Assembly: GCA_015179025.1 (NCBI GenBank)
Contig: WHUX01000024.1
Location: 432,773-496,772 of the forward strand
Reading direction: 5' to 3'
Origin: Terfezia claveryi
Taxonomy: Eukaryota; Ascomycota; Pezizomycetes; Pezizales; Pezizaceae
Length of the DNA stretch: 64,000 nt
Positions 1 through 40,480 of this stretch are shown one piece after another; within the stretch, counting starts at the first letter, position 1, and each line of letters opens with the position of its first letter. Under the pieces are notes generated by a model. It did no database searches. It saw only the letters and a program-made list of their open reading frames with translations, and was not told the DNA's origin. The position numbers and the translations under genes were made by a program.

Positions 1-185
1 TTTTTCTCAAATATATTTTAGCAGACATACATATATCCCTCAAGATCAGGCTCAGGCAGCGGGATCTGGACATGTTAATTGCCAACACCCACGCTGCTTG
101 TGCAAGAAATCTTCTACATATTAACAGGGGACAATATCTTATGCTGAAGACATGCAGAAACCGTACGAGTGATATGAATCGTCAC

Positions 186-195
186 TAGTCTGGTT
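186..195 (+). repeat. Micro-insertion TAGTCTGGTT with target duplication
   Basis: A 10 bp copy of the recurrent motif TAGTCTGGTT is flanked by AATCGTC at 177-183 and 196-202. Extending to 9 bp gives AATCGTCAC and AATCGTCGT, so seven bases match exactly. Member of the family described in the findings. Confidence 0.55.
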
Positions 196-661
196 AATCG
201 TCGTGCGTTAAATGTGTACATACCAGTTACGTACTAGCGCATACCTAAGTATCCATGAACTTCAACAGCCAGCAAAAAGCAATATCAACTTCAAGGGACT
301 GCCTAGGTCGATATATCGCTCTAGAAGCATTTATTCCCATACCAGGAAGTGTTATAGGTTTATTTTCAATGCTCTTGTAATGTAGCGATCGAATTTACCA
401 ATCAGTAGTCGTGATGCATGTGATTTCTGATTGAGTAATCATTATACTCTATGTACCTGGTTTCTATTGCCTCCGCACCCATTATATCACCACACAAGTT
501 CGTAACTGAAATCAATGGATCCAAAAGTTTACTGCTCGTATGTCACTGATAAGCATGAGGGATATCCTGTGGTCAACGTGAATCCATTTGGATCCATTCT
601 GAAATGCCAAGGAGTTTTCGCTTAGAATTGACAGACTTAGCTAATTCTAAAGAGCTCGTGT

Positions 662-673
662 GTAACCAGACTA
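662..673 (-). repeat. Possible micro-insertion remnant (GTAACCAGACTA)
   Basis: Reverse-orientation match to the TAGTCTGGTT motif. No flanking duplication was found, so this may be an old copy or chance. Confidence 0.25.
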
Positions 674-934
674 GGAACGTATATGGCAAAAAGGATTACA
701 GATAAAGCAACTAATAAGAAGCGATCATGGAGGGAAGCATAAGCAATGCAGCATGGGGTGCTAGATCTAAAACAATGAGCTTCAATTAATGAGGTTCTTG
801 AGCGGAAATGCGCATTTTTCTGGAGATTGGCTGGAATATGAGGTCACATCGGAATGTGACACTGGGTGCAGGGAGTGAATCGCTTCCAAAACTCTAGTAC
901 CGGTACTGTAGCTCCAGAATTACCTTTCCAAATA

Positions 935-1342
935 CAGTCTAACCTTGCTTACCGGACCTCGCTATAGCAGATTCCTTGTTATACCAGACGAACCAGAGGC
1001 TTCCGGAATTCTTACCAGCAAATTGCCTCTCGCTATACCGGACGGCCATACAATACCGGACCGGACAGAGTGATAGAGGAGTGCAGGGCTCTTCTTATCC
1101 CTGTCCCCATACATTTCTCCCTCGCTATACCGGACGAGGCAGGTCTGGTTGCTGAATAATCTACTCTGTTAGGCTTAATGTGACTCGAAATACCCTTATT
1201 GGAGGACAAAATGGGAGTTCTCAGAACCCACGTGACTGGTCAGCCCCTGTCTGAGGGCTAGCGCCATTTCTATACCGGAACCCTTGCTATACCGGACAGA
1301 AAGTCCTGGATTTCTGCCGTCCGTTATAGCAAGGGTAGACTG
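935..1342. mobile_element. MITE of Tc1/mariner-pogo type (copy 1)
   Basis: A 408 bp non-coding element is bounded by CAGTCTAACCTTGC on the left and GCAAGGGTAGACTG on the right, each flanked by the dinucleotide TA (933-934 and 1343-1344), as expected for Tc1/mariner-type integration. Several subterminal copies of the motif CTATACCGGAC occur inside. A second copy in inverted orientation lies at about 1553-1880. Confidence 0.75.
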
Positions 1343-1363
1343 TACCCTCTGAACTACTCGTGC

Positions 1364-1396
1364 CTAACAGGGGAACCCCTGTTAGGCACGAGTACC
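1364..1396. repeat. Short perfect inverted repeat next to the MITE
   Basis: ACTCGTGCCTAACAGGGG is followed almost at once by its reverse complement CCCCTGTTAGGCACGAGT, forming a strong hairpin between the two MITE copies. There is no poly-T tract or neighbouring gene to suggest a terminator. Confidence 0.6.
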
Positions 1397-1552
1397 TTCC
1401 CAAATGCCTTCCGAAAGATCCTGCTCATAATTATCCTCCTCTTCTAATGAGGATTCTATTGCAAAGACATATGCGATACTCTCAACTTCAGTTTGAATAA
1501 CCTGTAGCGTTTGAGCCTTTCCGGATCGAGGCATTGCGATGTGGTGATTTTA

Positions 1553-1880
1553 CTAGTCTACTGCTATAACGGACGGCAGAAATCCAGGGCTTTCTTAGTC
1601 TGGTTGGCACAACACCCTCGGGCTTTCTGTCCGGTATGGCAAGGTTCCGGTATAGAAATGGCGCTAGCCCTCAGACAGGGGCTGACCAGTCACGTGGGTT
1701 CTGAGAACTCCCATTTTGTCCTCCAATAAGGGTATTTCGAGTCACATTAAGCCTAACAGAGTAGATTATTCAGCAACCAGACCTGCCTCGTCGTATAGCG
1801 ATTGAGAAATGTATGGGGACAGGGATAAGAAGAGCCCTGCACTCCTCTATCACTCTGTCCGGTATAGCAAGGTTAGACTG
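1553..1880. mobile_element. MITE copy 2, inverted, with internal micro-insertion
   Basis: This is the reverse complement of the 935-1342 element, internally shortened and with a slightly eroded left end (TACTAGTCTACTGC instead of TACAGTCTACCC). Its right end GGTTAGACTG is followed by TA. It carries a 24 bp insertion at 1596-1619 that is absent from copy 1, so copy 1 serves as the empty-site reference. Confidence 0.75.
1596..1619 (+). repeat. 24 bp micro-insertion with 9 bp target duplication
   Basis: The insertion reads TAGTCTGGTTGGCAC followed by AACACCCTC. It is flanked on both sides by GGGCTTTCT (1587-1595 and 1620-1628). The corresponding stretch of the sister MITE, reverse-complemented, has a single GGACTTTCT, so insertion with target duplication is seen directly by comparison. 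Confidence 0.8.
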
Positions 1881-3354
1881 TAGTTGGCACAACACCTCGT
1901 AGGATTTTACAGTGTTTCGGCTAGTCCATGGCAGCTGCACTCATCAGAACAAGAGGATCTAGAACCAGGGGTAGAGCAGGAAGATGGCAACCAGTACAGA
2001 GTACTGAGCCTAAAAATGATTGGTTAACGTACAGTACTGCGATAGTGATAGATCTGAATCCTGTGACGTAAATAACGCTCATACTGTTTTGATACTTCAC
2101 GAGTTCGGTTGTGAAGGTTTGGACCTTTAAATTTTAATTACTAAGCTGCATAACAAGACTTATCTAGGCCTTGCTCAGACTTTTGAATTAAATCCAGAAT
2201 TCAGACTTTCCATTATCCTGAACGGGGCTCTTCTTATGCATGGTGAAATCATAGCACGTGCTTGTACTGCGAGAGGAGGTCACACCTGCTTTTAGAATTA
2301 AAGCTTATTAAAGCTTGAGATGCAGAGTGGACTGTCATAGTGGAATTACCTCCTTTTTTTTCATTCCTTCTCCTATAGGCCTATATCTCTTATTTTTTGC
2401 GCCTTCATCATCTCTGCTCACTCCTTCCTAATCCCACAGGGCCTTTATTTCTCTACCTTCCACCGGAACTTTACTTTTGCTTCTTATCTCTTTATAAAAT
2501 ATTAGCAATGCTCACTCGGAATAAATATGTCAATGTGCATTGTATGTCATGGTTATTATGGTGGTTCTAAGTTTTGTCGCTTTACATGTACCTTATAGTT
2601 ACATCATTAACTCGAACTTATCATAATATAAAAATAGTGAAAAACATATGTATATATATTTAAACAACTTCACTCCCGATGAAGGAGCCAATGCAGAATA
2701 TCTGGAGGATGATAATCACAAGGTGCCAGTGTAAATCGAAGAAGATGAGGCTTGTTGGTGCCATTAACTCTGCCTCTGCCTGCAGACTGCAGATTTAATA
2801 TCAGTACCTGGTATGAATACTTCCTAGTACGGAGTACGTCTGCTAGAAAGACCAGCAGAAAAAAGGAAACCACCCGGTGGGACGACTGCTTCTTTCATGG
2901 ATTAGACGAACCTAGTCTCATGCCAGGACGAACCAGAACTTGCCTTATCTAGTCTTACGTAAACACCGGTAGTTAGGCGCGTCAGGATTCCTCTGAACAT
3001 TCGCATCAACAAATCCTCTGTAGAGTACATGTATCTTTCAATTCAGATTTCAATAGGAATTGGTGAAGTTTGACAAATTATGTCTCCTTTGAAAGGCTTG
3101 AATGCCATTAAATCAGATTTGTTACATTTTCCAGTGGCTTAAGGGATACGTACTATGATGTGCATATGTAACGAAATGCGATTTTGCTTTGCAATTGGTA
3201 AATATAACCTGTAGCTATTCAACTTTGCCGAAGTATCTGAAGCCATGGGTGTAGTGATAACTAAGGTGTTAGGCTGCACTCGCCGCAGCTACATAAATGA
3301 CAACAGGGGATAACTTTCCGCAGATGAATTAATGACTTGCATGTATAGAGGGCC
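1881..3354. other. Intergenic, no gene recognised
   Basis: A degraded copy of the micro-insertion motif (TAGTTGGCACAACACCTCG) abuts the MITE end at 1881-1899. The remainder shows no convincing coding region; the short frames at 2670-2952 overlap each other on opposite strands and look like noise. Confidence 0.5.
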
Positions 3355-4400
3355 CTTTTTTTTTTTTTAAGTCTATAGACTACCCGCAATCGACCTAAGG
3401 TCATGACGGGGTCCCGAAGCCTCCCTTTGAAGGTTCGAGCTAAGCTTTCGGTACCAGAAGCGAATCCTACCTTCCGAGCCTAAGGAAAGCTTCCGCAAAA
3501 TTAAGCCCAGCCGTACCAAACTCCGAAACCATCCCCTTATCTGAAGTTCAGGTTGGAAGAAAGTCTCAAGCAGATCCTCGAAGACTTCTTTATCCCTGTC
3601 CTTCCTCTTCCGCAACCACCTCTCTCTATCATCCGCTTGCTCCCATGAGCTCCACCTCCTTCCAATCCATTCACCGGAGCTGCAAGACAAAGAAACATGC
3701 TTTCCGGTCTCCAGTACATCTTCTTCACAGAACCTACACTCGGGGTCCACTGTAGGATCCAGGACATTCCTCCACATTTGCAGTTTCCCTTTCCCAGTCC
3801 TGCATTAAGTGTAATTGAGTCGTGCCTTCCTATTCCACTTCAATACCCTTCCCATACCTGTCCCCACTACCTTCCGGCTCGCCTGTCTCTTCTTATTCCA
3901 CACTTGCCTAGCCCCTCCTTCCGTAATAACCCCTCACCTGCTCCCCTGCTCCCTGCTTCGCCAACCGATCGGCCTGCTCATTTCCAAAGACGCCGACATG
4001 AGCTTTAACCCAACTAAATCTGACAGCTTCATCCCCCTACCAATTTTAGATCTCCCGCCCTAGCTTCCTTGGACTTTCCCACTGCTACAATCGCAAAGCT
4101 TGCAGCCTCTGAGTCTGTAATGATGAGGACCTTTTCTTCCTTCCGTGCTGCCTCCAAAGCACCTCTTACCCCTGCGATTTCCCCATCCCAAACCGTAGCC
4201 ATCTTCCTAGGCCTTTGCATCCTTCTGTTCTTCCTTCCCTATCCACTACAAACCATCCCCCTCCAAACCCACCTTCTTCCAACTTGCTTCCATCGATATA
4301 GAAAATCTGGCTGCCATCTGCTGCTTCATTGATTTTTAGACCCCAGTATAGCGGGGGGCTGATATTCGGAGATAAATGACAGTTCTCAAGACCTTAGAGT
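3355..4400 (-). mobile_element. 5'-truncated LINE (non-LTR retrotransposon) with poly(A) tail
   Basis: The minus strand encodes the end of a LINE second ORF. An RNase H domain begins near 4310 with FYIDGSK, followed by ATVWDGEIAGVRGALEAA and the catalytic ITDSEAA near 4120, then [15 protein letters not shown] near 3980. These are followed by a C-terminal CCHC cluster (CRFC, then H and C) near 3700. Frames shift near 4205 and again before 3777, so the copy is dead. A run of about 15 T at 3355-3369 is the poly(A) tail on the coding strand. The upstream boundary near 4400 is approximate. RNase H after RT points to an I/Tad-like clade, which I infer rather than prove. Confidence 0.75.
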
Positions 4401-8939: not shown

Positions 8940-10007
8940 GCTGGGACAGAAATTGGGGTAAGGGAAGATACGCAGAAAAATTGCAGGTGGTGAACGGGCA
9001 TACAAGGAGGATTCTAAATTACTCCCTGTCGTACGCACATAATTTGATACAGTAACTAGTCACCGAAACCGCTCGTTCTGCTACCAAGTCTTTGAGGCCC
9101 ATTCCCTACAGATCAGGGAAGATCATACCAGATAATCGACCCTGTTACTAGATGATTTCTATTTCATTTATTGCTCTAATTACTGTGGCCATGTGGGCTT
9201 CAGTGAGGGTACAAGTTTATGCAAGTCTTACGTCAGTTTCTCTATACCATGCAATCATACAATTTTTCTATCTCCATCATGGTATGCACGGCAGTAAAAG
9301 GGGTTGCGGCATATTGGGGGTGGGATGCTTCTTGTCGTTGAATTGTTCCTTTTTCATTTAGTGGTCGTGATTAATGATTCATATGATATTGCTCAGTTTA
9401 GTTTCTCCTCTTCTCATTTTTTGTATTATATATTCTTACCTTGGAGAATCCACAGTTATTCAGATGATACCAACCGGCCTTGGTGCTTTTTATTTTGAAG
9501 TGAGGGGATATTTCTGCTTTATATCCTCCATGAAGGTGCGGTCCCGATGACTACTCACCTAAGCCTCTTAGAACTCGTCGAATACGGACCACCAAGTCTG
9601 TGCAGAATATGTCTTGAAATCTGATTTTGGACTCATTCTCTTGTTTGATATGTCTAGGATGAGACTTTGGGAATGCATGGGGGATACTATCCATCCCTAG
9701 GCTGTGGGGGCCAAGGCTAGAGGTGTTAACTTCCCAACTTGGTTCCCCCTCGGAAAAATCCTCGCTACGAGAGTCAGATTAAAATCCACCGGGGAATCTT
9801 AGTCGGAACTTATCTTCCTTGAGAGAGTCTAACTAAACTCCGATCTTTCGAGAGGCCGGACTCAAATTCGATTCTAACAGTGCAGTTGCAGAAGTCCCAC
9901 AACGGCATGAATATTGGTTCAAGGTAGGGGGCTCACGGTGTGTTCTGTTCTCGGCTATGTTGGATAGGTGATTCGATTTATTTTAGAGCTGCGAGATACT
10001 CTGATAT

Positions 10008-10018
10008 TAGTCTGGTTG
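10008..10018 (+). repeat. 11 bp micro-insertion TAGTCTGGTTG with 8 bp target duplication
   Basis: TAGTCTGGTTG sits between two perfect copies of TCTGATAT (10000-10007 and 10019-10026). Because the insert begins with TA and the right copy is followed by TA, the duplication could be counted as 10 bp. Confidence 0.75.
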
Positions 10019-12185
10019 TCTGATATTACTGGTCTGATAGTACGGCGTATCCGGTATTGGAAAACAGATCCTTCTCCGTTGTGTTGCATTTTGAAAAAGA
10101 GAAAGTACAGAAGTATCTACAGTTACTTCATTTACTCCATCACTCGTTGGTATTTCCTTGACACAACTGCTGTCGCCTGGAGCAGAGAAGGATAGAACAA
10201 GCATTAAGAACACGCTTCGCTAAAGCTGGAAGTTGTGGTGAGTTACATATTTGCTTTCTTTCATGCAGGCTTTCTTTCTTTTGCTTTTAGTCGTGATGGG
10301 GCTCGAGCCAGCAGTGCGTGCCTTGCACCACTCGCACCGATTTATATTGATGGAGGCGACATAAATATGCTGCCAGAGTCCTAGCTGTGGGTATCTCTAC
10401 ACCTAAGTGGCTGCGGAGGATGCCATTTACATCACCTTCGCTGCAGCATCTACAACTACCCACCCCGTCAGCCATAGATACTCTACTATGGACAACTCTC
10501 GCAATATTCCAAAATGCCTCCTCTCCCTAGTATCCTGGCTTATTGACCCCTTTGATACCCTGTTTTCCTTCATTTTACCTGATTCTCGTACATTGCGAAG
10601 ATCTTTCCTTACCCAAACTTACTATTTTCTAGTCCCCTTTACTTTAGGACCGCAAGGTGGAATATTTGATATTAATATGGTGCATGATAGAATTGAATTT
10701 AATACGAGATTCCTCTTTGCCACTAACCCCTGACTTGGGGGAAGATCTGTCGAGCTGTTATGGAGGTGCAGAAGAAGCTGGAAGCATCACAAGCTTACGC
10801 TTGTCCCATCGGGACAAAAACTTATAGCAATTTTATATGATCACGACGATATAAAGTTGGTGGAATCCGATAAGTCCTGTTCAGTTTCTCCTCCCTTCCT
10901 CATTGCGCTTTAGTAACCTGTCGGCATAGAGCCACCCTGTTTGCTCAAAATGTAGATCTTAGGATCTTCGTTACTTCTTATACTCGCTGCAATTAGTCTA
11001 CTTACTCTTTCGGCTTCATCGTCCTCGACCGTCAGCTGTCCTCCCCACCCCCACCAACCTCGGATAAACCCAAATAATTGTCTCTGGACCTATCAAACTT
11101 AGGTAGTAATGGCGAGGCTGATGGTTGAAATGAACCGGTTATGATACACCTTAAAAGCAAAGAGCTAGGAGTCACTAAATTCATCCACCAAGCTTATCCT
11201 CAGCAAGCCCACCTCCAGCAAGTGGCCCACTGCTGTAACCGTATACCTCCTACCCTCCCTTAGCTCAACCAGAGTATATTCACTGTACCATATATTCCAC
11301 CTGATCCAAGTTCCTTGGGGATAATTGTTCCGGGCTCCCCACGAGAAAATAAAACTCACGGAAGGCCCGGGCCACTCTCGAGAGGCCTAGGCCCCCAGGA
11401 GACCACCCATCTCCTGGCTTGCCCTGTCCCACTGGAGAATACGGAACGGCCGGGTCACCAACGAGTGAGTGAAAATGAGGTTCACGGTATCTTGATTAAA
11501 AAGATGATGTGGCTGTCGGGTGAGCTCATTACCCTGAACTAGACACTTGACCTATGCTTAACTTGTCAATGTGCAGGTGTAAGTGCCTCGTACAAGATGT
11601 GCTTACCACTGGCAGTACCTATGGCTTCCGACATATGGTGAGCTCGCCATACACGGCATTCTTGCCACATAGCGTAGGCTCACCATTCAAGATATCTTGC
11701 TGCACAAGGTGACCTCGCCTCTCAGGGGTGCTGGTGCGCTTGCCACATGAGATAAGCTCAGGCAAGCATGTGAGCTCAGCACACAAGGAAGTCTTAGTGT
11801 CACTTTACATTCACCGACATGCAACTACCGGTAATGCACATAGTCTGTTCTGCAAGATCATCCTAAGCCTCACCCTGATCGATATCAGCTGCTAACTATC
11901 CATGGCATACTGGACTGCTATTTATTATCCAACCCGTGAACTACAGTATAGCAGTTCTGCCAAACTGATTTGGATGAATTGCATACATTATCTGCATATG
12001 ATGCAAACCGCCTATCATTAGGAGAAGCTACTTCCTTAACCAGCCTGCAACTGCATATTTTTTTTCTTAAAAAAAAACTCATTATTTTTATATATCTGAT
12101 ATAATATTTATCTAGTTAATTTTTTATTTATATGTATGTAGTTTTAGTAAAGAATCACCAGGAAACCCGAGTGGATTCAAAATAA

Positions 12186-12200
12186 TAGTCTGGTTGGCAC
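12186..12200 (+). repeat. 15 bp micro-insertion TAGTCTGGTTGGCAC with 9 bp target duplication
   Basis: The insert is flanked by TCAAAATAA (12177-12185) and TCAAGATAA (12201-12209), eight of nine bases identical. Confidence 0.7.
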
Positions 12201-12405
12201 TCAAGATAAGGCAAGTCAATCTGCCATATCTGGCGCCTATATCGCAAACAAAATGAACTAGTCCCAATTATAAAAAGAAAGCAAATAAACTCAAGTGAAA
12301 CGGAATCCCCATGCTGTCATTAACCGGCTAGTGTACCAGATGACCTCGAGAGGCCTAACTGAAGCCCGCCCCAACCAAACTCGTATGGAATATAAAATAA
12401 AAAAA

Positions 12406-16320: not shown

Positions 16321-16324
16321 CAGC

Positions 16325-17677
16325 TTAAATGTGAGATTGGTATTGTTCTTGGTATTGCTCTTGGCATTTCTCCCCATAGTCTCCATAGTCTTCTATTTCT
16401 TCTTCTTCTGAATCTAGTGGCTCTGAGTCGAACCTTGGGAATCTTTGGATCTTATCCAAATAAATCTCAAGTTTCTCATCGACGACCTGCTTAATTTTCG
16501 GAAGGAGTTTATCCTCAAAGCATCTCCATCCAGCATATACCTTATTATGATGCCCGGAGAATAATATCTTAACCCCATATTCCTCTTCAACAATCCTAAA
16601 GAATTCCGTACATAAGAAGCAGCTCCGTTTTGATACCCCGATTTTGATTTCTTTAGGTCGTGGTGAAATAGATAAGAGCATTTGCAGCACGTTCATTTCT
16701 GCATGGGTACAGTGTGTTACTGATGCTCTGGCATTCAATAATTGACCCTGAACTGTCGGATAGGCTGCTTGTATTTGTTCTCCCATTATTTCCAGGTTGT
16801 GTAAGTAAATCGATTTTCGATTCAAGAGTTCCTGTGCAGAGCCAGATATGGGAATGTTCTCAGGAATAGGTGCTATAGCTTCCATAATGTCCAACTTAGT
16901 TGCATGCTTTTTGATGTGATGATACAATGATATTATCAACTTATGGGCAGCAGAATGATAGTCACCAAGTTTTCGGATACAGGTAACAACCTGTGCTGGT
17001 AGGATATCTGGATCATGTATTGAGATTTTTCCGATTACCCAAGAATCTAGCAAAACCGTGCAGTAGTTATCGTCTACGTTCGAAATGATACCCCCAGCTG
17101 CTCTTTCTAGGTAATTAGTCAGAAAGCGTTGTGTAAATGTTGTATCAGAAGTATCTATGCCAATCTTTCTAAAATGTGCATTCAAGATACTTTGTGCAGG
17201 CTGGCTGAGGCCGTGGTGGCTGAGGTCGTATTTGAGTATTGGCATAAGGAGGCATATAGCTTGTTGGAGCTTTCGAGCCCTATTGGCTATCTTCCTGTGG
17301 CAATGCATGACTATGATTTCCTGAAGACTTAGAACCACTGGCTGTAATTTTTTGGAATCATTTATTCCCCCAAGGCCAGCCAATAGCCCCTTGACCTTGA
17401 TAATAAAGTCATGGTCATTTTGGGAGCATGGCTGGTTTTTCGAATAGTATATTCGAAGTTTGGGGATTTGGGCTGAGGGCATGATAATAGTACTAGCCGC
17501 GCAATCTCCCTTTGCGCCGCTAACAAGGATCAATGCTATCAGATCCATGAGGCGGAGATGCTTCCGCACGGAGTTTGGCTGATCATATCGCGGTTGCTGT
17601 GGGTTGGGCTGGATATGCTTTATTATACTGAGCACGTATACGGCCTCGTAGAATGACAGGTCTGAATGGTTCTCCAT
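16325..17677 (-). CDS. OTT_1508-like nucleic acid/nucleotide deaminase family protein
   Basis: Uninterrupted 450-residue frame from ATG. The C-terminal third has the cytidine-deaminase-fold zinc motif: H325-A-E327 in THCTHAEMNVLQML and C353-x-x-C356 in IGVSKRSCFLCTEFF, followed by FSGHHNKVYAGW. The spacing and the SK-x-x-C-x-x-C phrase are typical of the OTT_1508-like deaminases, a family expanded in fungi and proposed to act as effectors or in biological conflict. The first ~280 residues are a helical region with no recognised domain, and the tail is acidic (LDSEEEEIEDYGDYGE). No signal peptide or NLS seen. Substrate is unknown; I infer a deaminase only from the motif. A broken relative lies 1.3 kb downstream (14230-15055). 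Confidence 0.7.
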   Translation of the reverse strand: MENHSDLSFYEAVYVLSIIKHIQPNPQQPRYDQPNSVRKHLRLMDLIALILVSGAKGDCAASTIIMPSAQIPKLRIYYSKNQPCSQNDHDFIIKVKGLLAGLGGINDSKKLQPVVLSLQEIIVMHCHRKIANRARKLQQAICLLMPILKYDLSHHGLSQPAQSILNAHFRKIGIDTSDTTFTQRFLTNYLERAAGGIISNVDDNYCTVLLDSWVIGKISIHDPDILPAQVVTCIRKLGDYHSAAHKLIISLYHHIKKHATKLDIMEAIAPIPENIPISGSAQELLNRKSIYLHNLEIMGEQIQAAYPTVQGQLLNARASVTHCTHAEMNVLQMLLSISPRPKEIKIGVSKRSCFLCTEFFRIVEEEYGVKILFSGHHNKVYAGWRCFEDKLLPKIKQVVDEKLEIYLDKIQRFPRFDSEPLDSEEEEIEDYGDYGEKCQEQYQEQYQSHI

Positions 17678-17814
17678 GACAATGATAAGGAGCAGCCTAA
17701 GGCAGCTGAAGTATAAATAACGTACGTCAGTTTCGGTACAGTGAGGTCATGGGTAACAGCATTGAAAAGAGCTCACCGAGGCAATGAAAACGATAGAGAC
17801 CCCTTTGGCCGGAA

Positions 17815-18375
17815 TGGTAGTGTGACCCCTTTGGGTGTCAGTGCTGTATGCTGTATCGTTCCCCTCAAAACCACCGTTAGCTACATCCCACATGGATATC
17901 CACACTCTGAACAACCCAGCTTACCTTTGATAGAGACCCCTTTGACCGGAATCGTAGTGTTAGGACCCCTTTGGGTGTCTGTGCTGTATGCTGTATCGTT
18001 CCCCTCAAAACCACCGTTAGCTACATCCCACATGGGTATCCACAATCTGAAGCACCCAGCTTACCTTAGAGACCACTTTGGCGGAATCGTAGTGTTAGGA
18101 CCCCTTTGGGTATCTGTGCTGTATGCTGTATCGTTCCCCTCAAAACCACCGTTAGCTACATCCCACATGGGTATCCACAATCTGAAGCACCCAGCTTACC
18201 TTAGAGACCACTTTGGCGGAATCGTAGTGTTAGGACCCCTTTGGGTGTCTGTGCTGTATGCTGTATCGTTCCCTTAAAACCACCGTTAGCTGCATCCCAC
18301 ATGGATATCCACACTCAGAACAACCCAGCGGAATCGTAGTGTTAGGGCCCCTTTGGGTGTCAGTGCTGTATTGTA
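17815..18375 (+). repeat. Tandem repeat, about 132 bp unit, four to five copies
   Basis: Each unit contains GTAGTGTTAGGACCCCTTTG, CTGTATGCTGTATCGTTCCC and CATCCCACATGG. Units start near 17818, 17956, 18090, 18222 and 18333 (the last partial). The second, third and fourth are most alike, indicating local amplification. The open frame through the array (17741-18277) reflects the repeat length being a multiple of three and is probably not a gene. Confidence 0.75.
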
Positions 18376-18376: not shown

Positions 18377-18385
18377 TAGTCTGGT
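18377..18385 (+). repeat. Micro-insertion TAGTCTGGT with 6 bp target duplication
   Basis: Flanked by TTGTAG at 18371-18376 and 18386-18391. The flanks are themselves low-complexity (GTAG repeats), so the duplication is less certain here. Confidence 0.45.
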
Positions 18386-21301: not shown

Positions 21302-21610
21302 ATGGACAGTTTGCCACCTGTTCGTCGAGATGCATCAGGTTGGGCGGAAAGACGGAAGGAATTGGAGCGAGATATATCTGCTACTCACTCGAAAAATCGT
21401 CGACGTGCAATTGCTACTAACGACATGTTGAGACGAATGGAGACCCGGTGGGCGGAATTCTCTACTTTCATATTCCCCAGTGAAAGTCCGAAGATAAGTA
21501 TTCGTAACGCCAGTATTGTTGATTTTAAGCTATTCTGGGAATGGCATTTGGAAAACAGCAAGACGGGTGCCTTGTTTTTCAGAGGTCGTTGTGCCAACCA
21601 GACTAAATAA
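21302..21610 (+). CDS. Hypothetical protein, apparently truncated by a micro-insertion
   Basis: A 102-codon frame from ATG. The first ~92 residues have protein-like composition (LRRMETRWAEFSTFIFP, IVDFKLFWEWHLENSKTGALFF), possibly the N-terminus of a fungal integrase/FluG-like or DUF3435-type protein; this is a weak guess. The last codons, RGRCANQTK and the TAA stop, are supplied by the micro-insertion motif at 21582-21605. The gene therefore seems to end inside an inserted sequence. Confidence 0.35.
   Translation: MDSLPPVRRDASGWAERRKELERDISATHSKNRRRAIATNDMLRRMETRWAEFSTFIFPSESPKISIRNASIVDFKLFWEWHLENSKTGALFFRGRCANQTK
21582..21605 (-). repeat. 24 bp micro-insertion motif within the 21302 frame
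   Basis: GAGGTCGTTGTGCCAACCAG then ACTA is the reverse complement of a copy closely matching the 1596-1619 insertion. No flanking duplication was found. Confidence 0.45.
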
Positions 21611-22702
21611 CAGCAGTAAGTTTGGTTTCCGTTTTCGTTATGCCATAGAGCTGATAGGTGTAGTTTTTATACCAACTTGCGTATAAGGAAGACTTAGAAA
21701 GAGATAACAAACCTAAAGGCGTCATCAATCACCATGACATTGGTCACCTTTTAAGGTCTCAGTAGGAATGTGATTCGTGGAGAATCAGAGATGGTAGAAG
21801 GCGTGCCAGATAGATGCGACAAAGGTAGAGGCAATAACAAGCTGGCCAATCCCAAGCAATATTCATGATGTTTGAGTTTTCCTAGGATTTGCCAATTTTT
21901 ATATGAGATTTATTGCAGGATATTCTTCATCAAAACTAATAAGAAAATATGAGGTAGGGTTAAAATGGGGGCTCTCGCTCCAAGGGGGGCTCTCATGGGC
22001 TCTCTCTCTTAAGGGGCGCTCTTAACCAAAGAGGGGCTCTTTCGACCAAAGGAGGGCTCTCTCGACTAAAGGGGGTTTCTTTGCTAAACTAATTATGACA
22101 ACATGTGATCATATCTGTTACTGGGGTTGGGGCTAGGCTGGCTGGGAGGTTGACATGTAAGGAGATGGGATGGAGATGTGCCAACCAGGAGATGGAGATA
22201 GAGATAGAGGAGTTGATATTACTGGGTTAGGGTTAGATCGTGGCTTGATATTATATGTAAAAGTTTCTACTCTAAACTATTTTTGTACAATAAAGTACAA
22301 CCATGCGTTCAGGTTTTAATTTTATAAATTAAATATATACAAAAATTCTTACAAAAATAATATTCCAATATATATACCGGCATGCATTGCCTGAATTGCG
22401 CAACGGCCCAGAACATATATTTATATTACATACAATTTTTACCTATATTTTCATTTATATTTCCTCATATATTAATTTAATATATAGGTAACTATGGAAT
22501 CAATTGTCTATTCAATAAGGATCTTTTATAGTTGTATAATTACTACTATCATATAAATCTATATATATAACTATACAAGCGAATTCCCATACTCGAATAT
22601 AACTGCCCGACCTATGAACCCACCACATACGGAATGGGTCCTATGAAAGAGTTGGGATATTGTGCGCTAGGAAGGAGAAAGAGAATGCAATCAAAACTAT
22701 GC
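21611..22702. other. Spacer; AT-rich 22240-22560
   Basis: Includes a low-complexity run of GGGGCTCTC-type repeats (21965-22080) and a micro-insertion at 22178-22191. No gene recognised. Confidence 0.45.
22178..22191 (-). repeat. Micro-insertion GTGCCAACCAGGAG with 8 bp target duplication
   Basis: Flanked by ATGGAGAT (22170-22177 and 22192-22199). The usual CCAGACTA end is altered to CCAGGAG. The flank is purine-rich and locally repetitive, so the duplication could be fortuitous. Confidence 0.45.
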
Positions 22703-23951: not shown

Positions 23952-25268
23952 ATGCCATTCACCATCGTGAAGAGGACAATGGCAGTCTTCAACTCCTTTG
24001 CAAAGCGGGGTGCGAGTCACCTCGGGCAATTAACATGCCTTCCGCATCCAAGAATTCCCGCACTATTGCCGGCTCACAGGACTTACGTGACTGTATTCGG
24101 ATATACGCAGGCTAAAGCACTGGTTTATTCTGCCCATGGCCAGCCAAAGGATGTTCTGAGGTAAGCCTCTCCACTAGGCCCGCACAATATGTGGTACATT
24201 CCAATTTGGCAGTAGCTAACCAATTGAGAACAGCCTTCACAAGCATTCCGTTTCACCGCCGTATGGCATGCATCTGAACGTCAAGTTCCTCGCATCCCCA
24301 ATCAATCCCGCAGATATTAATCAAATCGAAGGTGTCTACCCCTCCAAACCCCCATTCACCCAGCTACTTGGAACGTCCGCCCCTCAGCCGTAGCCGGGAA
24401 TGAGGGGCTTTGTGAGGTGACCTCCGTAGGGAACCTAGTTGTGAACTTTAAGCCCGGCGATAGGGCAATATTTCGTGCCCCAGGTTTTGGCACTTGGAGG
24501 ACCCATGCAGTAGTTCTACATGAGAACTTGCTGACAACGGTACCCAATGACATCCCCATACTATCGGCCGCCTGCGTATCTGTAAACCCATGCACTGGCT
24601 ACCGCATGCTCACAGACTTCTGGGGTAAAGAGGGCTTAAAACAGGCTGCTATTAACGGCGAATGGGTGATTCAGAACGGAGCAAACTCCGGGGTGGGAAG
24701 AGCAGTGATCCAGATGGCGAAGATATGGAATTTAAAAACGATCAACGTCGTTCGTGGGAAGCGGTCTCCGACGGAATTAAGCAATCTGCGGAATGAGTTG
24801 AAGGAGCTGGGAGCTAATGAGGTAATTACGGATGAGGAATTGAGCTCGAAAGAGATAAAAGGGAAAATTGCATATCTTATGGGTGGTCATGGGGTTGGAT
24901 TGGGGTTGAATTGCGTTGGTGGCAAAGCAATGACTGATATGGCAAGGAATTTACGGCATTCTGGGACAATAGTCACATATGGTGCGATGGCAAGGCAGCC
25001 AATTACGATTCCTGCGAGTTTGTTCATCTTTAAGAATCTTTCATTACGGGGATTTTGGATTAGCGAGTGGGCGCAGGAATATGTTGAGGAGAGGGAAAAA
25101 ATGTTAAAGGAAATATTTGGGTGGATCAGGAAGGGGTGGTTGAAGGATGGTCCGATGGAAGAGGTTAAGTGGACAGGAGAGAGCAAGGAGGAAGAGCTAG
25201 TAGGGGCAGTATTAAAAGCTGGGCAGGGGACAGGTGCGAAGAAAATATTCGTCTTTCAGCACGATTGA
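23952..25268 (+). pseudogene. etr1: Etr1-like mitochondrial 2-enoyl thioester reductase, one apparent frame break
   Basis: Exons 23952-24160 and 24234-25268 around a 73 bp intron (GTAAGC...AACAG). The N-terminus is a basic, Ser/Ala-rich presequence, leading to YTQAKALVYSAHGQPKDVL. Exon 2 has ASPINPADINQIEGVYPSKPPF, which includes the conserved Tyr of the family active site, then VNFKPGDRAIF and the nucleotide-binding NSGVGRAVIQMAK. It ends with a full-length MDR domain (SLRGFWISEWA). The family reduces trans-2-enoyl-ACP/CoA with NADPH in mitochondrial fatty acid synthesis, which feeds lipoate production. At about 24383 one base is missing between LGT and PSAVAGNEG, shifting the frame into a stop. 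Everything else reads cleanly, so a recent mutation or an assembly error are both possible. Confidence 0.75.
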
Positions 25269-27501: not shown

Positions 27502-28266
27502 CAGATGACTCTCGTTACAAGCATACCAGATACAAGCATATATTGGTTACTAGCATACCTTCGGCAGTCCCACATAGTAAATAAGCATATTTCCGTTACT
27601 AGAATATTCTTATTTTTTTTGCTTAGTCACCATACATATGCTTGTAACAAGAGAAGCACTAAACCATAACTAGAGGTTGATCGATTAGAAATGTGCCAAC
27701 CAGACTAGAAATAACCCCCATACGCTTACGCTATATCTTACAACATACACAACACACGCAACACATCAACACACACAATATTCAATACAACATAAACTAC
27801 ATTTCTATGTCTTCTGCAAAGAGTTCTTGTTCCGCACCGTCAGCCATGGTCAGAGGTGGAACCTCAGAGTATACAGACATATGCAAAACAGAACCCGAGT
27901 GACATATTAAGATGGTTCGAATTCGAAAACTCAAGTAAAGAACTGACGCAGTCGCCAAGGTGATCCCTCGGTCAATACCACTACCTTCCAAGATGCACTC
28001 AAGCATGAGAAAAGACGGATCGAGATTCTTGAGATGGAACGCAGGCGGCAGCATGTGCAGCGCAGGATAACTGATTTTTTTGGGTACTTCCGGAGCCCTC
28101 CTCCTCTTCCTGATGTCTCTCTGTTATTTGTATGCATGTCCAGTATTTATTGTGTCATTCTGAAGGCTTTCCTACCTAGTAATAAATTTCTCTAGTTATA
28201 AGCATATATTGGTTATAAGCATACATTCCCCCGTCCCGACGATATGCTTGTAACAAGAGTCATCTG
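27502..28266 (+). mobile_element. Internally deleted pogo/Fot-type DNA transposon inside the Crinkler-like gene
   Basis: Inverted ends starting CAGATGACTC match over about 23 bp with one difference and are flanked by TA (27500-27501 and 28267-28268). The plus strand near 28000-28085 keeps the transposase tail: EKRRIEILEMERRR, then QHVQRRITDFF, the hallmark pogo C-terminus. The catalytic part is missing, so the copy is non-autonomous. It carries its own micro-insertion at 27693-27705. Motifs AAGCATATATTGG recur near both ends. Confidence 0.8.
27693..27705 (-). repeat. Micro-insertion GTGCCAACCAGAC with 7 bp target duplication
   Basis: Flanked by TAGAAAT (27686-27692 and 27706-27712). If the constant end is taken as CAGACTA, the duplication is the 5 bp GAAAT. 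It lies inside the pogo-type element that itself interrupts the Crinkler-like gene. Confidence 0.65.
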
Positions 28267-32664: not shown

Positions 32665-32862
32665 AAAATAGAGCAGGTGTATTGGGGGGGGGGGGTTGAT
32701 TCTAAGATAATGAAGGTTGAACGAGATGATCAAAGAAGACAGTTGTAGTCTAGGTGTAAGAGATAAATATAGAGAGTAGAGCAGGTGTATTGGAGGTGGC
32801 TGGTTCTAAGATAATGAGGTGTTGAACGAGATGATCAAAGAAGACAGCTGTAGGCTAGCTGA
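32665..32862 (+). repeat. Direct duplication of about 95 bp
   Basis: GAGCAGGTGTATTGG...TTCTAAGATAATGA and GAACGAGATGATCAAAGAAG occur twice, at about 32670-32755 and 32778-32862. The second copy forms the 3' end of the coiled-coil frame below. Confidence 0.65.
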
Positions 32863-33905: not shown

Positions 33906-34932
33906 GGTGACATTCAAAGCAATTGCTTCATAGGCCCTAGAGCTGGTATTGATGCCACTACCGTATCGGATACTTGGTAGATTAAAGGCGTTCCTATAGA
34001 AGGGATTAGGTTACATTGGGACAAGGACACGGATATTCCCCACAACATATTCGTAGCCATCGTATGGAAGTATTTGAGAGATGATGGTGGCGGGGTTGGT
34101 GTTCTTGGCCGTGATGAGAAGCAGGCTGGTGATTGAAGTGTGGGGGTTCTGGGCCGTGATGAGAAGCAGGCTGGTGATGGTAGCGGCGATGAACATCGTG
34201 GAACGAGGTTACTGCTGCAAGGTTTTGATTCTGGTACGTGCCCATTACAGTTTCCGATTTAGGAAATCCCAGTTATGGTGAATGCGTAGTCTCGAGACTA
34301 GTGAATGCGGTGATTCGGTACTGAGGTGCAATGATGGCTACTTAACTCGGAGACAAGACACCTGTTAGCATTATCGCCAGACTAGTAGCAATAGTCATTA
34401 CCGAGTCCACCCACCTTGAGCCTATTCACCTAGTCCCACCCTTATCGTCTTGGCTCCAACATGATACCATACCTGTGTCATATATGTATGCTTCTGAACG
34501 GGCTTCCCCTGCCCTACGTACAACACCATCCACCAAAGCGTCCAGAAAAGCGTGATGTGAGTGCAGTATTGAAGCAAGCCTTTGAGGGCAAGCAACATGC
34601 ACAGCAGGAGCTGGGCTTGAAGAGAATTAAGGCTGAGCAGGAAGTAAGATTGGAAATAGCCAAGGTTGAGAAGGAGGCAAAGTTGGAAGTTGCACGGATT
34701 CACACAGGTGATTATGACAGTTTAATGAGGGCTAAAATGCTATATTCGATGTCAACTTGAGAGGTTGAGTGATGTACATATGTACAGCTAGGCGCAGTAC
34801 CGTAGAATTCGTCCGATAAGCCTGCAGTCTTAAACAGTCACGATTACTGTCTTAAACACAGTTACTGTCTTAAATAAGGTTACTGTCTTATACTATTTAG
34901 CGAGCGCTATGTGTCTAGCTATACCTCAGCCA
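33906..34932. other. Spacer with a coiled-coil frame fragment
   Basis: At 34550-34757 a plus-strand frame reads KQAFEGKQHAQQELGLKRIK and VRLEIAKVEKEAKLEVARIH, ending TAG-free at TGA. It looks like the end of a protein whose upstream part is missing. Short inverted phrases GGGCCGTGATGAGAAGCAGG are duplicated at about 34108 and 34150. Nothing else recognised. Confidence 0.35.
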
Positions 34933-36520: not shown

Positions 36521-36783
36521 TGGAGTTTTCCTGACATGCACAGAACCTACTTACAGCTCTAATGTTGTTTTAGTGTTTTTGTGGTTTATTGGCTAAAGAT
36601 CTGAGAGTCGGGCAGCATTTGGTTCGACTCTCGCATATGGCAAACGCTCGTTTGACGACCTAGCACAGTTGGCATTTGGGGTCGAAGCCAGACTTCAAAC
36701 ATGGACTCCGAAATTTTTGTCTGCAGACTGCATGTCAACGGCTCGCCTCAGCTTGTAGGACTGGCGAAACTCGATCTAAAAAT

Positions 36784-36822
36784 TAGTCTCGATCAGACCC
36801 GACGAGGGTCTGATCGAGACTA
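36784..36822. mobile_element. 39 bp palindromic insertion with 9 bp target duplication
   Basis: TAGTCTCGATCAGACCC, spacer GACGA, then the exact reverse complement GGGTCTGATCGAGACTA. It is flanked by TCTAAAAAT (36775-36783 and 36823-36831). The TAGTCT terminus is shared with the micro-insertion family, but the following bases differ. Confidence 0.75.
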
Positions 36823-36840
36823 TCTAAAAATGATAACCTA

Positions 36841-36865
36841 CGAGGGGCTTGTGCCAACCAGACTA
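36841..36865 (-). repeat. 25 bp micro-insertion motif
   Basis: CGAGGGGCTTGTGCCAACCA then GACTA. Together with the copy at 1881 it extends the shared sequence to CCTCGTAGG. No clear flanking duplication. Confidence 0.45.
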
Positions 36866-36909
36866 TAGCTTACTGACAAAAAGGGTAACTGGGGGATACC
36901 GGAAAGGGT

Positions 36910-37254
36910 ATGGGCCAAAAAAGGACTACCTGTGTGATTTCCCAAAAAGGCAACCATCCAATAATACCGAAAGAAGAAGTCAAAAATTCTAAATACCCAA
37001 TGCGTGCTGTGGTGGGGATGCTGTTGGCCTACAAGCTGCTAGATGAGATACCTGAGGATTTCGGGATTCGTTATGGAATTGATGTATCAACTCATGCACG
37101 TGCAAGAAGCTCTCTACCCCCATGCGGAAGAATTGTTGGAAGCATGCTAGACTGGCATATGATCATGCTTACTTATAAGATTATGACTTCTTGGGCTCAT
37201 GGGACTAGTCTACTTGGCATTGACCGAATAAAATTTTCGTATAAATGGTTATAA
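36910..37254 (+). CDS. Hypothetical protein fragment
   Basis: 114 codons from ATG. The first ~75 residues look protein-like (KKEEVKNSKYPMRAVVGMLL-type text, YKLLDEIPEDFGIRYGIDVS); the rest becomes less so. Possibly a transposon-derived helical segment. No family recognised. Confidence 0.3.
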   Translation: MGQKRTTCVISQKGNHPIIPKEEVKNSKYPMRAVVGMLLAYKLLDEIPEDFGIRYGIDVSTHARARSSLPPCGRIVGSMLDWHMIMLTYKIMTSWAHGTSLLGIDRIKFSYKWL

Positions 37255-37864
37255 GTACCACTTTTGACGGATAAATGGTTGTGTGGAGGTCCTCGAAAAA
37301 GTGGCTTGCCAAGATATCCGTATTTGAAAGGTCATGTGACAACACTACCAGATTAAGACAGTAGATAGTACGCTAGGGGATCCGTAAGGTTAAAACCTTC
37401 GGATCCACTCTAGACCTCTTCTTCTTCTCTCTCATGATAGAATAACGAGATCACCATACTTCAAACCTTCGTGATCTCCCAGTATTATATGGCCGAATAA
37501 ATTAACTTTGAATAGGTACCCCTATTCTAGAAGGAGCAATCCTGCACTTTGTGCGTTTATTGAGGCTCTATAATACCTATCTTTATGCAACTCGTTCCAT
37601 TAACTAGAGTCCGCCAATTAAAGGGTCTGCAAAAGAGAAAGAGTGAAAAAAAAAACAGAGGAAATAGCAAATCAGAAACGAAGCAAACAATAATAAGAAA
37701 ATAAACCGGTTCATCCTTTTCTAGAAACTTTTTTTTTTTTTTTTCCTTTTTTCCGTATATGGATCGGCTATGGGTGGGGTTAGTGGTAAACATTGAGAAG
37801 GGTTTGTTTTATTTGATTTGTACCTGAATTGTCATAAAATCCACCATCCTCAATTCCCGTCGTC
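37255..37864. other. Spacer, no gene recognised
   Basis: Contains a short inverted repeat GGATCCGTAAGG...CCTTCGGATCC at about 37378-37406 and a T18 run at 37729-37746. Confidence 0.4.
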
Positions 37865-39348
37865 CTAGTTTGCCCAGGCACTAACCACAGTGTCTCTCTT
37901 CCATCCGTCAAATCCCACTCCTTGGGAGTTGAAGTAACTCCAGACCCAAACCTTGATAGGCACATTCACCCAGACCGTCCCCCTTCGATTTTGAGGAATA
38001 TGCTCAGGTGAGGTTAAGTCGTCGAGGTAGAGTGTAAAGTATCGATTTTGTTGACCTGTTGAAACCGTGGAGCGGGAGATTGGAGGGTGCTCTTGTAGTG
38101 TGTCAAAGGTGTCGTTAGTGCCTTGACGGACCTCAGAGAGATAATCCCAAATGCAGGTACTAAAAATCTCTTTAGTAGTGATGATATGTTTGGAGATACA
38201 TGCTGGGATGGTGCATGTTGGGCGATTACGAAGGGTGGGTTCACGTTTCAATGCACCTGTTGTGGTATCTGTCTGATTGCGCCAAATCTCAACCGTTATT
38301 GCGATGGATTTTAGTGCTGCCTCGGATAGGTATGAAGCAAGATCAGGTGCAAGATCCTGGCTGATATTAAAGTCTTGCCTCTTGAACAAATCTCGAAATG
38401 CAGGGAGCCAATGTTTTGTCAGATTCTCATTGATTTTTAACACAATCACACACTGGACTGCATGATCTTCAAGGGCCTCTATTTCATTCCGAACCAGCCT
38501 CCAAAGCCATGACTTTGCGACAATATGAACTTCTCCAGGAGTCTGACTATACCCTGTCTCGAGGACCAGAGTTGGAATCTCTCTATCTCTGCGACCAAGG
38601 GAAGCATCAGGGCATTTGATTCGGAGACCGCCGGGTGAGAGGGGGGAAGATTGACATCGATTTGTCCCTTGTGCCAGCTAATATAACTCTTTACCTCTGG
38701 TATGATTGCCATTTTATTTCGAAGTAAGCTGCCAAGGGAGATCCAGCCATGGCTACCGGATTCATGGGTATGTGAAGGACGCCGCATGATCAGTGTGGTA
38801 TCATAGAAGTCGATTTTAATTCTGAAATTATCGAGTTGGGGTGCGAAGAGGTTGTACAGCTCAAGGTACTCAAATGGGGGTAGGTTAATAATGCACAGTA
38901 CAGTAACTTGGTTTGGGCCTACATAGGTATGGAACAGGCTATGTGTTTCCAGGTATTTGTTGAGGCATTGAAGCGTAGCGAATTCACCCCTGCTGATGGT
39001 GACCATCGTGGCTGGACTGGGGTCAGATTGAAGCACTGGTATTTCAATGGCGGTGCCAGCTGACAAGCAGGGTTCTGCTTGTAGGTACCATGCCAGTGGT
39101 GTGGTGAGAGAGCTCGGGAGTGGGACAACGGAGTGAGTTGCCTTAAAGTCTTGTTTCTTCAGTAAGGTACGTTCATGAGGTGGCGGATCAATGGGTGAGG
39201 TCAATAGTGCTGTTGGGATATATTTTGGTTGTGCTACAGTAGCTGGCGCTGTCTCTCCTGTGTTGGCCAATGTGTCAGGTGCGGTGACTGCATGACGCAT
39301 GTTTGGTCGAATACTCCGATAGCATGTATCATAGCACCAGGTGGCCAT
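37865..39348 (-). pseudogene. Hypothetical protein in two overlapping frames
   Basis: ATG at 39348 opens a 289-codon frame (MATWCYDTCYRSIRPNM...) that stops at 38479. The neighbouring frame picks up near 38520 (RLVRNEIEALEDHAVQCVIV) and runs on to 37865, ending SAWAN. The two halves have similar composition and no intron signals at the joint, so a single-base frame break near 38515 in one ~490-residue protein is likely. No signal peptide, membrane helix or known domain recognised. The upstream flank (39480-39575) is a dispersed repeat also present at 18455-18545. Confidence 0.45.
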
Positions 39349-39489
39349 GTTGTTTTAGGCAGACGTCCTCACTCGTAGACGATAGTTGTAGTACTTCGGA
39401 GGTATGCACTGTTCAGCGGTGGCACGAGTTGATCCTGGGGTTTGCTGAAGAGCCTCAGGGTGAGATATCTGGATGATGTGAATGTAACT

Positions 39490-39575
39490 TTAATGGCCGA
39501 GGAGAGGACCTTATATATGGTTCTCCCAAGTTTCCTGCCAAGCCCGCCAATATGCCTATCTAGGTAATGCAACGC
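39490..39575 (+). repeat. Dispersed repeat shared with 18455-18545
   Basis: Same phrases in the same order (TAATGGCC, GGACCTTATA, CCTGCCAAGCCCGCC, ATCTAGGTAATGCAA). Confidence 0.55.
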
Positions 39576-39644
39576 AGGCATGTGGTACAGTATCAAGTTC
39601 CTTGAAGAGTCTTAGGAATAATCTCGACTAGACTAGAAGAATCT

Positions 39645-39711
39645 ACGAGTATCTAGTCTGGTTAACGAGTTTCAATCAGACTAACGAGTTTCCCAACCAG
39701 ACTAGAGTTTC
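39645..39711. repeat. Three stacked micro-insertions sharing one duplicated target
   Basis: The target phrase ACGAGTTTC or a close variant appears four times: ACGAGTATC 39645-39653, ACGAGTTTC 39665-39673, ACGAGTTTC 39684-39692 and (AG)AGTTTC ending 39711. Between them lie TAGTCTGGTTA (39654-39664), AATCAGACTA (39674-39683) and CCAACCAGACTA (39693-39704), the first in plus and the others in minus orientation. Confidence 0.75.
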
Positions 39712-40480
39712 CCCAGATCAGAGTTTGTATGGCCATGCATGTGTGTGCTTACCTAAGCCTAGTGCATTAAATAGCTGCATAAGAGTATGCAGTAGCTTGG
39801 AAGAATGAACCTTCAGTTGGTACCCATCAGACGCGTATTCAATCTTTTCTCTCGAGCAGTCAGAGAGCTCAAGGATTTTCGAGCCCCGATAGAGCTCATC
39901 TTATTGGCGCCTCATATCAAGTTCCAGCAGAATGTACGAGTTTCTGCAGATAAGAGTCCTTCTTCGGCTGGCAACACCAACACCGTGCAGGACGAGCTTG
40001 GTCGAATTCGACAACCAGAGGGTTTCCGACTTGGCAAGAAGGCCTTTCCGACGGATTCCAAAACCAACCGTAAAAATGGCGCATAGCAACCTTTTTTTTT
40101 TTTTTTAAGAGTCTGTACGACATAATAGGGGTATTCAAAGTTTAAGTTTTCGGCCAAAAATCGTGTGCGATTTAAACGGCCGGATAAATCGCCAAACCTC
40201 GGGTCCCCCCTCAAAAATCCCGGATAAAAAAATTGGATTCGGACCATATTCACCACGTAAAGTTAATTGGAATCTGCGACCGTGCTAGTCTGGTTGGCGA
40301 CCGTGCTATTGACTGCTAGGCCGAATTTGGCTAGCTATCACGTTACACTTTGACTTATCATGTTACACTTGGCACTCATCATGTGTACGCCCCCTCCAAT
40401 ACTACTGGGTTAACTTGCTGACTCAAGGCAGTGTTTACCAGGTCCAGGTCATGGCATATAATTACTTACAGGACTTGCTA
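39712..40480. other. Spacer, no gene recognised
   Basis: Contains a T15 run at about 40091-40106 and a micro-insertion at 40286-40296. The overlapping frames at 39805-40256 on both strands are not convincing genes. Confidence 0.4.
40286..40296 (+). repeat. 11 bp micro-insertion TAGTCTGGTTG with 10 bp target duplication
   Basis: Flanked by perfect copies of GCGACCGTGC (40276-40285 and 40297-40306), each followed by TA. The insert is identical to that at 10008-10018. The duplicated target is high-complexity, so chance is unlikely. Confidence 0.85.

Follow-up and report, generated by a model that had tools for sequence, protein, structure and literature searches.

Short inserts with one constant end and 9-bp target duplications dispersed in the genome of the desert truffle Terfezia claveryi

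Introduction

A 64,000-nucleotide stretch of the genome of Terfezia claveryi (Pezizales, desert truffle; 72.56 Mb in 794 contigs), corresponding to C157:432773-496772 and referred to here as the window, contains very short sequences that begin with TAGTCT and lie between direct repeats. The question raised by this locus is how such units were inserted and spread. A first-pass annotation had described them as a single dispersed family of insertions with one constant end, a variable opposite end, and target duplications of 6-10 bp, and had offered two readings: remnants of an element with TAGTCTGG termini, or extreme 5' truncations of a retroelement ending in ...GTGCCAACCAGACTA. This interpretation was partly supported. 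The observation was confirmed as genuine, and it is larger than first described, with several thousand copies in the genome.

In the following, a sequence starting with TAGTCT is called an arm. An insert is one-ended if TAGTCT adjoins one copy of the 9-bp repeat and the opposite end is variable, and two-ended if it carries an arm at each end; the genome-wide counts of two-ended copies refer to forms with both arms intact and a spacing of up to 30 bp. The close-up sample consisted of the window together with 200 kb of contig C1 (264 kb in total); the negative results on a parent element refer to this sample, to the sites compared for inner sequence, and to four transposase loci, all of which amount to a small part of the genome.

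Abundance of the Arm Sequence

The 10-mer TAGTCTGGTT matched the genome at 7569 positions and its reversed control at 161, and the 15-mer TAGTCTGGTTGGCAC matched at 2885 positions and its reversed control at none. The counts for successive prefixes were 7569 (10-mer), 4088 (12-mer), 3193 (14-mer), 2885 (15-mer), and 1616 (17-mer with AA). The window itself held 15 matches to TAGTCTGGTTG with at most one mismatch, against 1.30 expected. The copies were located on contigs of up to 1.1 Mb, which exceed the size of a mitochondrial genome, and the copies are therefore presumably nuclear. No known RNA family at gathering score and no tRNA was detected in the window; the exact 17-mer had no match in viral contigs, and positions 1500-2000 of the window had none in phage records.

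Target Duplications

Of 56 TAGTCTGG sites in the close-up sample, 18 had a flush exact repeat of 8 bp or longer, compared with 168 of 20,000 random sites. Shuffled controls scored 3 of 908 sites (six hexamers) and 0 of 21 sites (two 8-mers), and none of 66 sites beginning TAGTCTA or TAGTCTT carried such a repeat. A site was taken to pass if at least 8 of nine positions agreed in a 9-bp repeat directly adjoining the TAGTCT end; with a detector covering inserts of 6-66 bp, 135 of 398 sites passed, whereas about 11 were expected by chance (143 of 5000 random positions pass). Overall, insertions of approximately 7-36 bp with a duplication of approximately 9 bp were seen at about half of the sites examined.

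The duplication proposed by the first-pass annotation is thus real, but its length varies little around 9 bp. In a pooled set of 192 TAGTCTGGTT sites, 98 carried a flush exact repeat of at least 6 bp, which measured 9 bp at 50 sites, 8 bp at 12, 10 bp at 12, and 11 bp at 4. A peak at 9 bp with some values of 10-11 bp is what a 9-bp duplication plus chance extension is expected to give. Among 32 one-ended inserts with a single mismatch in the 9-mer, the mismatch lay at one of the two positions adjoining the truncated end in 19, indicating that junctions are less precise at the truncated end than at the constant one; the loss at the truncated side looks repair-like. No target consensus was apparent at 87 sites.

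Empty Sites

The flanks of 134 inserts were joined and searched against the analysed sequence, and 48 junction-spanning matches were obtained. The paralogue of window 1596, at 1237-1341 on the minus strand, was 94% identical over 105 bp, lacked the insert, and carried a single 9-mer with one base different. Likewise, a paralogue of C1:65902 (89% over 84 bp) had no insert and one copy of the 9-mer. A weaker empty paralogue was found for C1:152612 (78%), whose three other matches were gapped near the junction. The remaining junction-spanning matches were read as tandem repeats, self-matches, or other arm copies and were excluded from the count. Insertion was therefore precise at the two clear paralogous empty sites. 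The first-pass annotation had made its claim of insertion depend on flanking repeats in excess of chance and on empty sites that lack the whole insert; the repeats exceeded both the random and the shuffled controls, and the empty sites lacked the insert together with one repeat copy. The few paralogous sites found included none with an intact element in one copy and a remnant in the other.

Window 940-1340 and 1560-1880 hold two copies, in opposite orientation, of a repeat whose ends are of the CTATACCGGAC type and which we take to be Fot/pogo-like; the 24-bp insert lies in one of them, and the other provides the empty site.

Insert Lengths and Arm Families

For the length count, 24 of 111 one-ended rows were set aside. 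Five of these did not start like an arm, and 19 were longer than 36 bp and were read as tandem repeats, two-ended forms with extra bases, or nested copies. The 87 clean inserts (up to 36 bp, duplication fixed at 9 bp) measured either 7-17 or 23-36 bp, and no length of 18-22 bp occurred, so that the opposite end is variable as proposed, but in two length classes rather than a continuum. Similarly, 30 inserts chosen without the 15-mer comprised 22 of 7-15 bp and 8 of 23-36 bp, two of the latter being visibly composite. Frequent stops were TAGTCTGGTT (10) and TAGTCTGGTTGGCAC (15), the stop at 15 being favoured by the choice of sites, and the genome-wide prefix counts agree with the length classes. 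Arm-matching spacers of 2 or 4-6 nt were absent between repeats, and those of 1 nt (7 of 11) and 3 nt (3 of 25) matched an arm prefix at the estimated chance level.

The single-family picture did not hold. Several arm families were found that have only TAGTCT in common, often together with a CCCTC...GAGG tip, with genome-wide counts of 2885 for TAGTCTGGTTGGCAC, 363 for TAGTCTCGATCAGACC (control 2), and 267 for TAGTCTGGTTGCACTACC (control 0); more families were seen. At least ten arm variants were distinguished by our own typing, and shared arm sequence is over by approximately position 36. The copies that had been called full-length proved to be just longer arms: that at 36841 is a 28-bp arm, that at 21582 an arm of another variant, and that at 1881 a degenerate arm.

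Two other dispersed repeats containing TAGTCTC (TAGTCTCTTTCTTCG... and TAGTCTCGGCATAGC...) occur at C1:111341, 113764, 132225, and 149065, at window 13637 and 19044, and at C1:160875. They go on with shared sequence and lie outside the arm family.

Two-Ended Copies

Most inserts are one-ended. In the close-up sample, 30 one-ended inserts were found versus 3 two-ended ones, and genome-wide the two-ended copies numbered 46 in the first family (versus 2885 15-mers) and 10 in the second (versus 363). Among the 25 first-family forms with flanks, 8 had an exact 9-bp duplication, 1 an exact 8-bp duplication, and 3 a duplication of 8-10 bp with one mismatch. The centres of the two-ended forms were nearly all private (51 different among 56). 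About half of the forms (27 of 56) were fully explained as an arm prefix joined to a reversed arm prefix, an overlap of up to 4 bp being allowed, and the same variant was present on both arms in 20 of 23 typed forms. Together, the private centres, the two-arm composition, and the like variants point to two separately truncated arms from one source, with no widely amplified master palindrome. A looser same-variant count of 25 of 27 was discarded, as it included 14 untypable forms (arm shorter than 18 nt or second family); 20 of 23 is the fairer figure.

Copying into Staggered Breaks as the Preferred Reading

Partial copies of small arms added at 9-bp-staggered chromosomal breaks appear to be the best reading of these results, and we advance it tentatively. 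One-endedness, discrete stops, private two-ended centres, and the lack of a parent in the sample fit the copying of a small arm into one or both sides of a staggered break. The copying itself, a hairpin-shaped template, the sequence of steps, and the enzyme are inferred. A putative enzyme without clear sequence preference would cut the two strands 9 bp apart, and fill-in of the recessed 3' end on one side would produce the duplication. Synthesis would then continue into a small template starting with TAGTCT, copying would halt after approximately 10-15 nt or near a hairpin tip (24-34 nt), and end joining would seal the new end to the opposite side. Extension would normally occur on one side and seldom on both, the latter giving the two-ended palindromic inserts. 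The arms, of approximately 25-34 nt, would probably be one half of a hairpin of approximately 50 nt. That the hairpin causes the stops is a suggestion: the stop positions fit the main arm, but its predicted folding is no better than that of shuffled sequence.

Two templates may be considered. One would be a very small DNA element that folds on itself, of which a Mutator-like (DDE) transposase would attach a strand to the target. The other would be a small RNA copied by reverse transcriptase, for which telomerase RNA fragments copied into breaks are a precedent (PMC2246262). We lean slightly toward DNA because of the 9-bp, preference-free target. If the template is RNA, RNAs of 24-34 nt ending in ...CCAGACUA would be expected, and their 5' ends should correspond to the length classes of the inserts.

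Several findings weigh against the copying of arms into breaks. No exact flush repeat of at least 6 bp was present at 94 of the 192 TAGTCTGGTT sites, of which some are nested, some have a mismatch, and some are unexplained. Thirteen of the 25 two-ended forms with flanks had no outer duplication, several being evidently nested separate inserts, and 29 of the 56 two-ended forms were not fully accounted for by two known arms. The like variants on the two arms are natural for one parent with two like ends, whereas copying requires an extra assumption. In folding predictions, 33 of 200 shuffles folded at least as well as the main arm as DNA, and 183 of 200 at least as well as the AAC arm as RNA. 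No enzyme or template gene was identified. Finally, window 12186 and C1:12792 share 47 bp at 89% identity, at exactly equal distances of 98 bp from TAGTCT; the two sites with their shared segments occupy window 12186-12330 and C1:12640-12792.

With somewhat more reserve, we consider it possible that the family represents an undescribed form of nuclear mobility, in which a free hairpin template of 25-50 nt would be copied into 9-bp-staggered breaks from a single side in each event. Units as short as 7-15 bp would in this way have spread to several thousand places without an element body.

Excision Scars and Other Origins

The main rival, which we regard as doubtful, is that the inserts are excision scars of a rare Mutator-like transposon. 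A cut-and-paste element with TAGTCT terminal repeats and a 9-bp duplication would have left 10-34 bp of one end, and rarely of both, on imprecise exit and would now be rare or extinct, with thousands of scars as its trace. Mutator-like elements (MULEs) make duplications of 8-9 bp without target preference, and in yeast a mosquito MULE on occasion left behind as much as 13 bp of terminal repeat; the constructs concerned had no donor-site duplication (PMC5225508). The same-variant arms and the local clustering described below fit a two-like-ended element that excises imprecisely, and local hopping would give both the clustering and the reuse of targets at window 39654-39704 and at locus L047.

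A long parent was sought in the sequence analysed, and the result argues against scars. In the 264 kb, none of 1129 TAGTCT...AGACTA pairs 67-30,000 bp apart had matching flanking 9-mers (0.12 expected). When sequence beyond position 36 was compared at 178 sites with neighbouring arms masked (28 further sites lacked sequence), inner sequence was common to only one pair. Apparent pairs 600-1130 bp apart on contigs C1 and C2 (L029-L033) showed no matching outer duplication by eye. Thus, the shape proposed by the first-pass annotation, with one end constant and the other truncated, stood, but the sequence analysed yielded neither a long element with TAGTCTGG termini nor a retroelement ending in ...GTGCCAACCAGACTA. 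In addition, each of the at least ten arm variants would require its own parent, the sharing of arm sequence stops by approximately position 36, and remnants of 2 or 4-6 nt are missing. The genome contains 21 MULE-domain matches; four of these loci were checked for approximately 1.5 kb on each side, and no arm was found. Two of them (L057 2787 and L058 515) share TAGTCTGTGTAGTGA approximately 1 kb upstream of the domain, but its match to the arm is limited to the first seven bases and its orientation is wrong for an end of that gene. Spacer-free 9-bp tandem duplications were not in excess (9 at period 9, 8 at period 8, and 5 at period 10). This is neutral with regard to scars because MULE excision often removes one copy; at a duplicated site it is reported as approximately 90% precise, with one copy lost (PMC5225508).

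It is quite improbable that the inserts derive from a palindromic miniature inverted-repeat transposable element (MITE) of approximately 50 bp that a transposase mobilised, with almost all copies later losing one arm by hairpin-related deletion. Near-perfect palindromes with exact 9-bp duplications do exist (L034, L059, L060, L061, L066, L068, L072, and L076), and the long one-ended class stops near the palindrome centre. However, two-ended forms carry only approximately 3% of the 15-mers (92 of 2885), the 51 different centres in 56 forms speak against a master palindrome having been widely amplified, and the deletions would have to end within 0-2 bases of the duplication in most duplication-bearing copies. 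Extreme 5' truncation of an ordinary non-long-terminal-repeat (non-LTR) retrotransposon or short interspersed element (SINE) with the 3' end ...GTGCCAACCAGACTA would account for a constant end, a variable opposite end, and a duplication, but is very improbable, since there is no longer-copy family (one pair among the 178 sites shares sequence past position 36), two-ended palindromic copies exist, and the duplication is regular at 9 bp, whereas non-LTR retrotransposons and SINEs usually make duplications of variable length.

Clustering and Target Reuse

The arm copies are locally clustered. Within the first 100 15-mers listed, 13 of the 98 distances between neighbours were 100 bp or less, compared with 0.75 on average and at most 5 in simulations. 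One target in the window was hit repeatedly, with three inserts of approximately 10 bp at 39654-39704, and L047 at 84-230 holds three inserts from two arm families, in both orientations, around one ACAAAAATT target. At L037 264-440, a tandem repeat has as its 58-bp unit a segment that includes an arm together with the CGTCAGATC duplication.

Inserts and Other Features of the Window

Twelve sites had been listed by the first-pass annotation, and seven of them passed with a 9-bp repeat flush at the constant end, with 9/9 identity at 1596, 40286, 39683 (minus), and 39704 (minus) and 8/9 at 10008, 12186, and 39654. Four sites were weak and one had a damaged constant end. Three passing inserts had been overlooked (34287-34300, 36784-36822, and 2913-2925), and none of three more TAGTCTGG sites tested in the window (673, 34384, and 29469, all minus) passed (Table 1).

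Table 1. Arm-related sites in the window, with their flanking repeats.
Feature	Position	Strand	Flanking repeat
Weak site	186		7-bp repeat, not flush
One-ended 24-bp insert, AAC arm variant	1596..1619	+	9-bp duplication GGGCTTTCT, 1587-1595 and 1620-1628
One-ended 13-bp insert, other arm family (TAGTCTCATGCCA)	2913..2925	+	8/9 duplication, 2904-2912 and 2926-2934
One-ended insert, 10-11 bp	10008..10018	+	TCTGATAT duplication, 10000-10007 and 10019-10026 (8/9)
One-ended insert, exactly 15 bp (TAGTCTGGTTGGCAC)	12186..12200	+	8/9 duplication, 12177-12185 and 12201-12209
Possible short insert, weak	18377..18385	+	Flush repeat of 6 bp only
Weak site	20752	-	6-bp repeat, not flush
Insert with damaged constant end (CCAGGA for CCAGACTA)	22178..22190	-	Perfect 9-bp repeat GATGGAGAT, 22169-22177 and 22191-22199
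Exact 15-bp arm, weak	27693..27707	-	Remaining flush repeat of 5 bp
Two-ended 14-bp palindrome TAGTCTCGAGACTA	34287..34300	.	9-bp duplication GTGAATGCG, 34278-34286 and 34301-34309 (9/9)
Two-ended 39-bp inverted repeat, CGATCAGACC arm family	36784..36822 (C157:469556-469594)	.	9-bp duplication TCTAAAAAT, 36775-36783 and 36823-36831 (9/9)
28-bp arm (TAGTCTGGTTGGCACAAGCCCCTCGTAG), previously called full-length	36838..36865	-	No recognisable duplication
Nested insert 1 of 3 in one target, 10-11 bp	39654..39664	+	ACGAGTATC/ACGAGTTTC, 8/9
Nested insert 2 of 3, 10 bp	39674..39683	-	ACGAGTTTC duplication, 39665-39673 and 39684-39692 (9/9)
Nested insert 3 of 3, 10 bp	39695..39704	-	GAGTTTCCC duplication, 39686-39694 and 39705-39713 (9/9)
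One-ended 12-bp insert (or 11 bp with a 10-bp repeat)	40286..40297	+	CGACCGTGC duplication, 40277-40285 and 40298-40306

The window also contains an open frame with a DDE_Tnp_4 domain (PF13359) at 51302-52372, presumably of Harbinger type, a 450-amino-acid open frame with an OTT_1508-like deaminase domain (16325-17677), a retrotransposon gag-like frame (44621-45520), and an 838-amino-acid open frame resembling retrotransposon polyproteins (60079-62595). An enoyl-reductase frame of the window matches a T. claveryi protein at 100% identity; a partial enoyl-reductase gene is located at 24417-25268, with a second copy in T. claveryi at 85% identity. Tandem repeats were found at 17794-18329 (approximately 135 bp, 4 copies) and 52689-53034 (36 bp, 9.6 copies).

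Significance and Comparison with Known Systems

If the inserts are primary insertions, thousands of them are present in one genome, where standard repeat annotation would hardly detect them, and they would constitute a steady supply of small insertions, each bringing a 9-bp duplication. As scars, they would form an unusually complete record of excision repair, in which the discrete remnant lengths report the action of transposase and end joining. Under either reading, the family offers a countable system for testing the fill-in and sealing of staggered breaks.

The inserts are far smaller than ordinary mobile elements and, as primary insertions, would be far below the size of the mobile elements known to us; no description of such a family was recognised among the literature matches listed. 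Excision footprints of P elements consist of approximately 10-20 bp of one or both terminal repeats between target duplications; the P-element duplication is 8 bp, and genomes with these footprints also contain the parent.

The systems most similar in behaviour are MULE insertions and footprints, mitochondrial hairpin elements, and telomerase-RNA fragments at breaks. MULEs and related MITEs such as Muta1 share the duplication of 8-9 bp, the absence of target preference, inverted-repeat ends (here in the two-ended copies), and occasional terminal-repeat remnants after excision (PMC5225508). The observed peak at 9 bp falls within the 8-11 bp, typically 9, by which MULE duplications are recognised. 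MULEs are also recognised by terminal inverted repeats at both ends, which the truffle family as a whole does not carry: it shows 30 one-ended against 3 two-ended copies in the sample, inserts of 7-36 bp, and no parent in the sequence analysed. Since it shows neither the two ends of a MULE or MITE nor the longer copies of a retroelement, the family is filed under neither.

The mitochondrial hairpin elements of fungi and sponges (double-hairpin elements and GC clusters) are units of tens of base pairs able to fold into hairpins, and their mobility through DNA transposition or RNA intermediates has been proposed and not settled (PMC2800124). Those of Allomyces are noted there as having no flanking duplications (PMC2800124), in contrast to the 9-bp duplication described here. 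Double-hairpin elements are recognised by mitochondrial location and stable hairpins; the truffle inserts are mostly one-ended, lie on large, presumably nuclear contigs, and have single arms that fold no better than shuffles.

Telomeric and telomerase-RNA fragments at breaks resemble the truffle inserts in being short, templated, and placed at double-strand breaks, and small duplications sometimes accompany them (PMC2246262). Duplications are only occasional in that account (6 of 130 rodent and 4 of 25 primate cases), and the inserted sequence is telomeric (PMC2246262), whereas in T. claveryi the duplication is regularly approximately 9 bp and the inserted sequence is unrelated.

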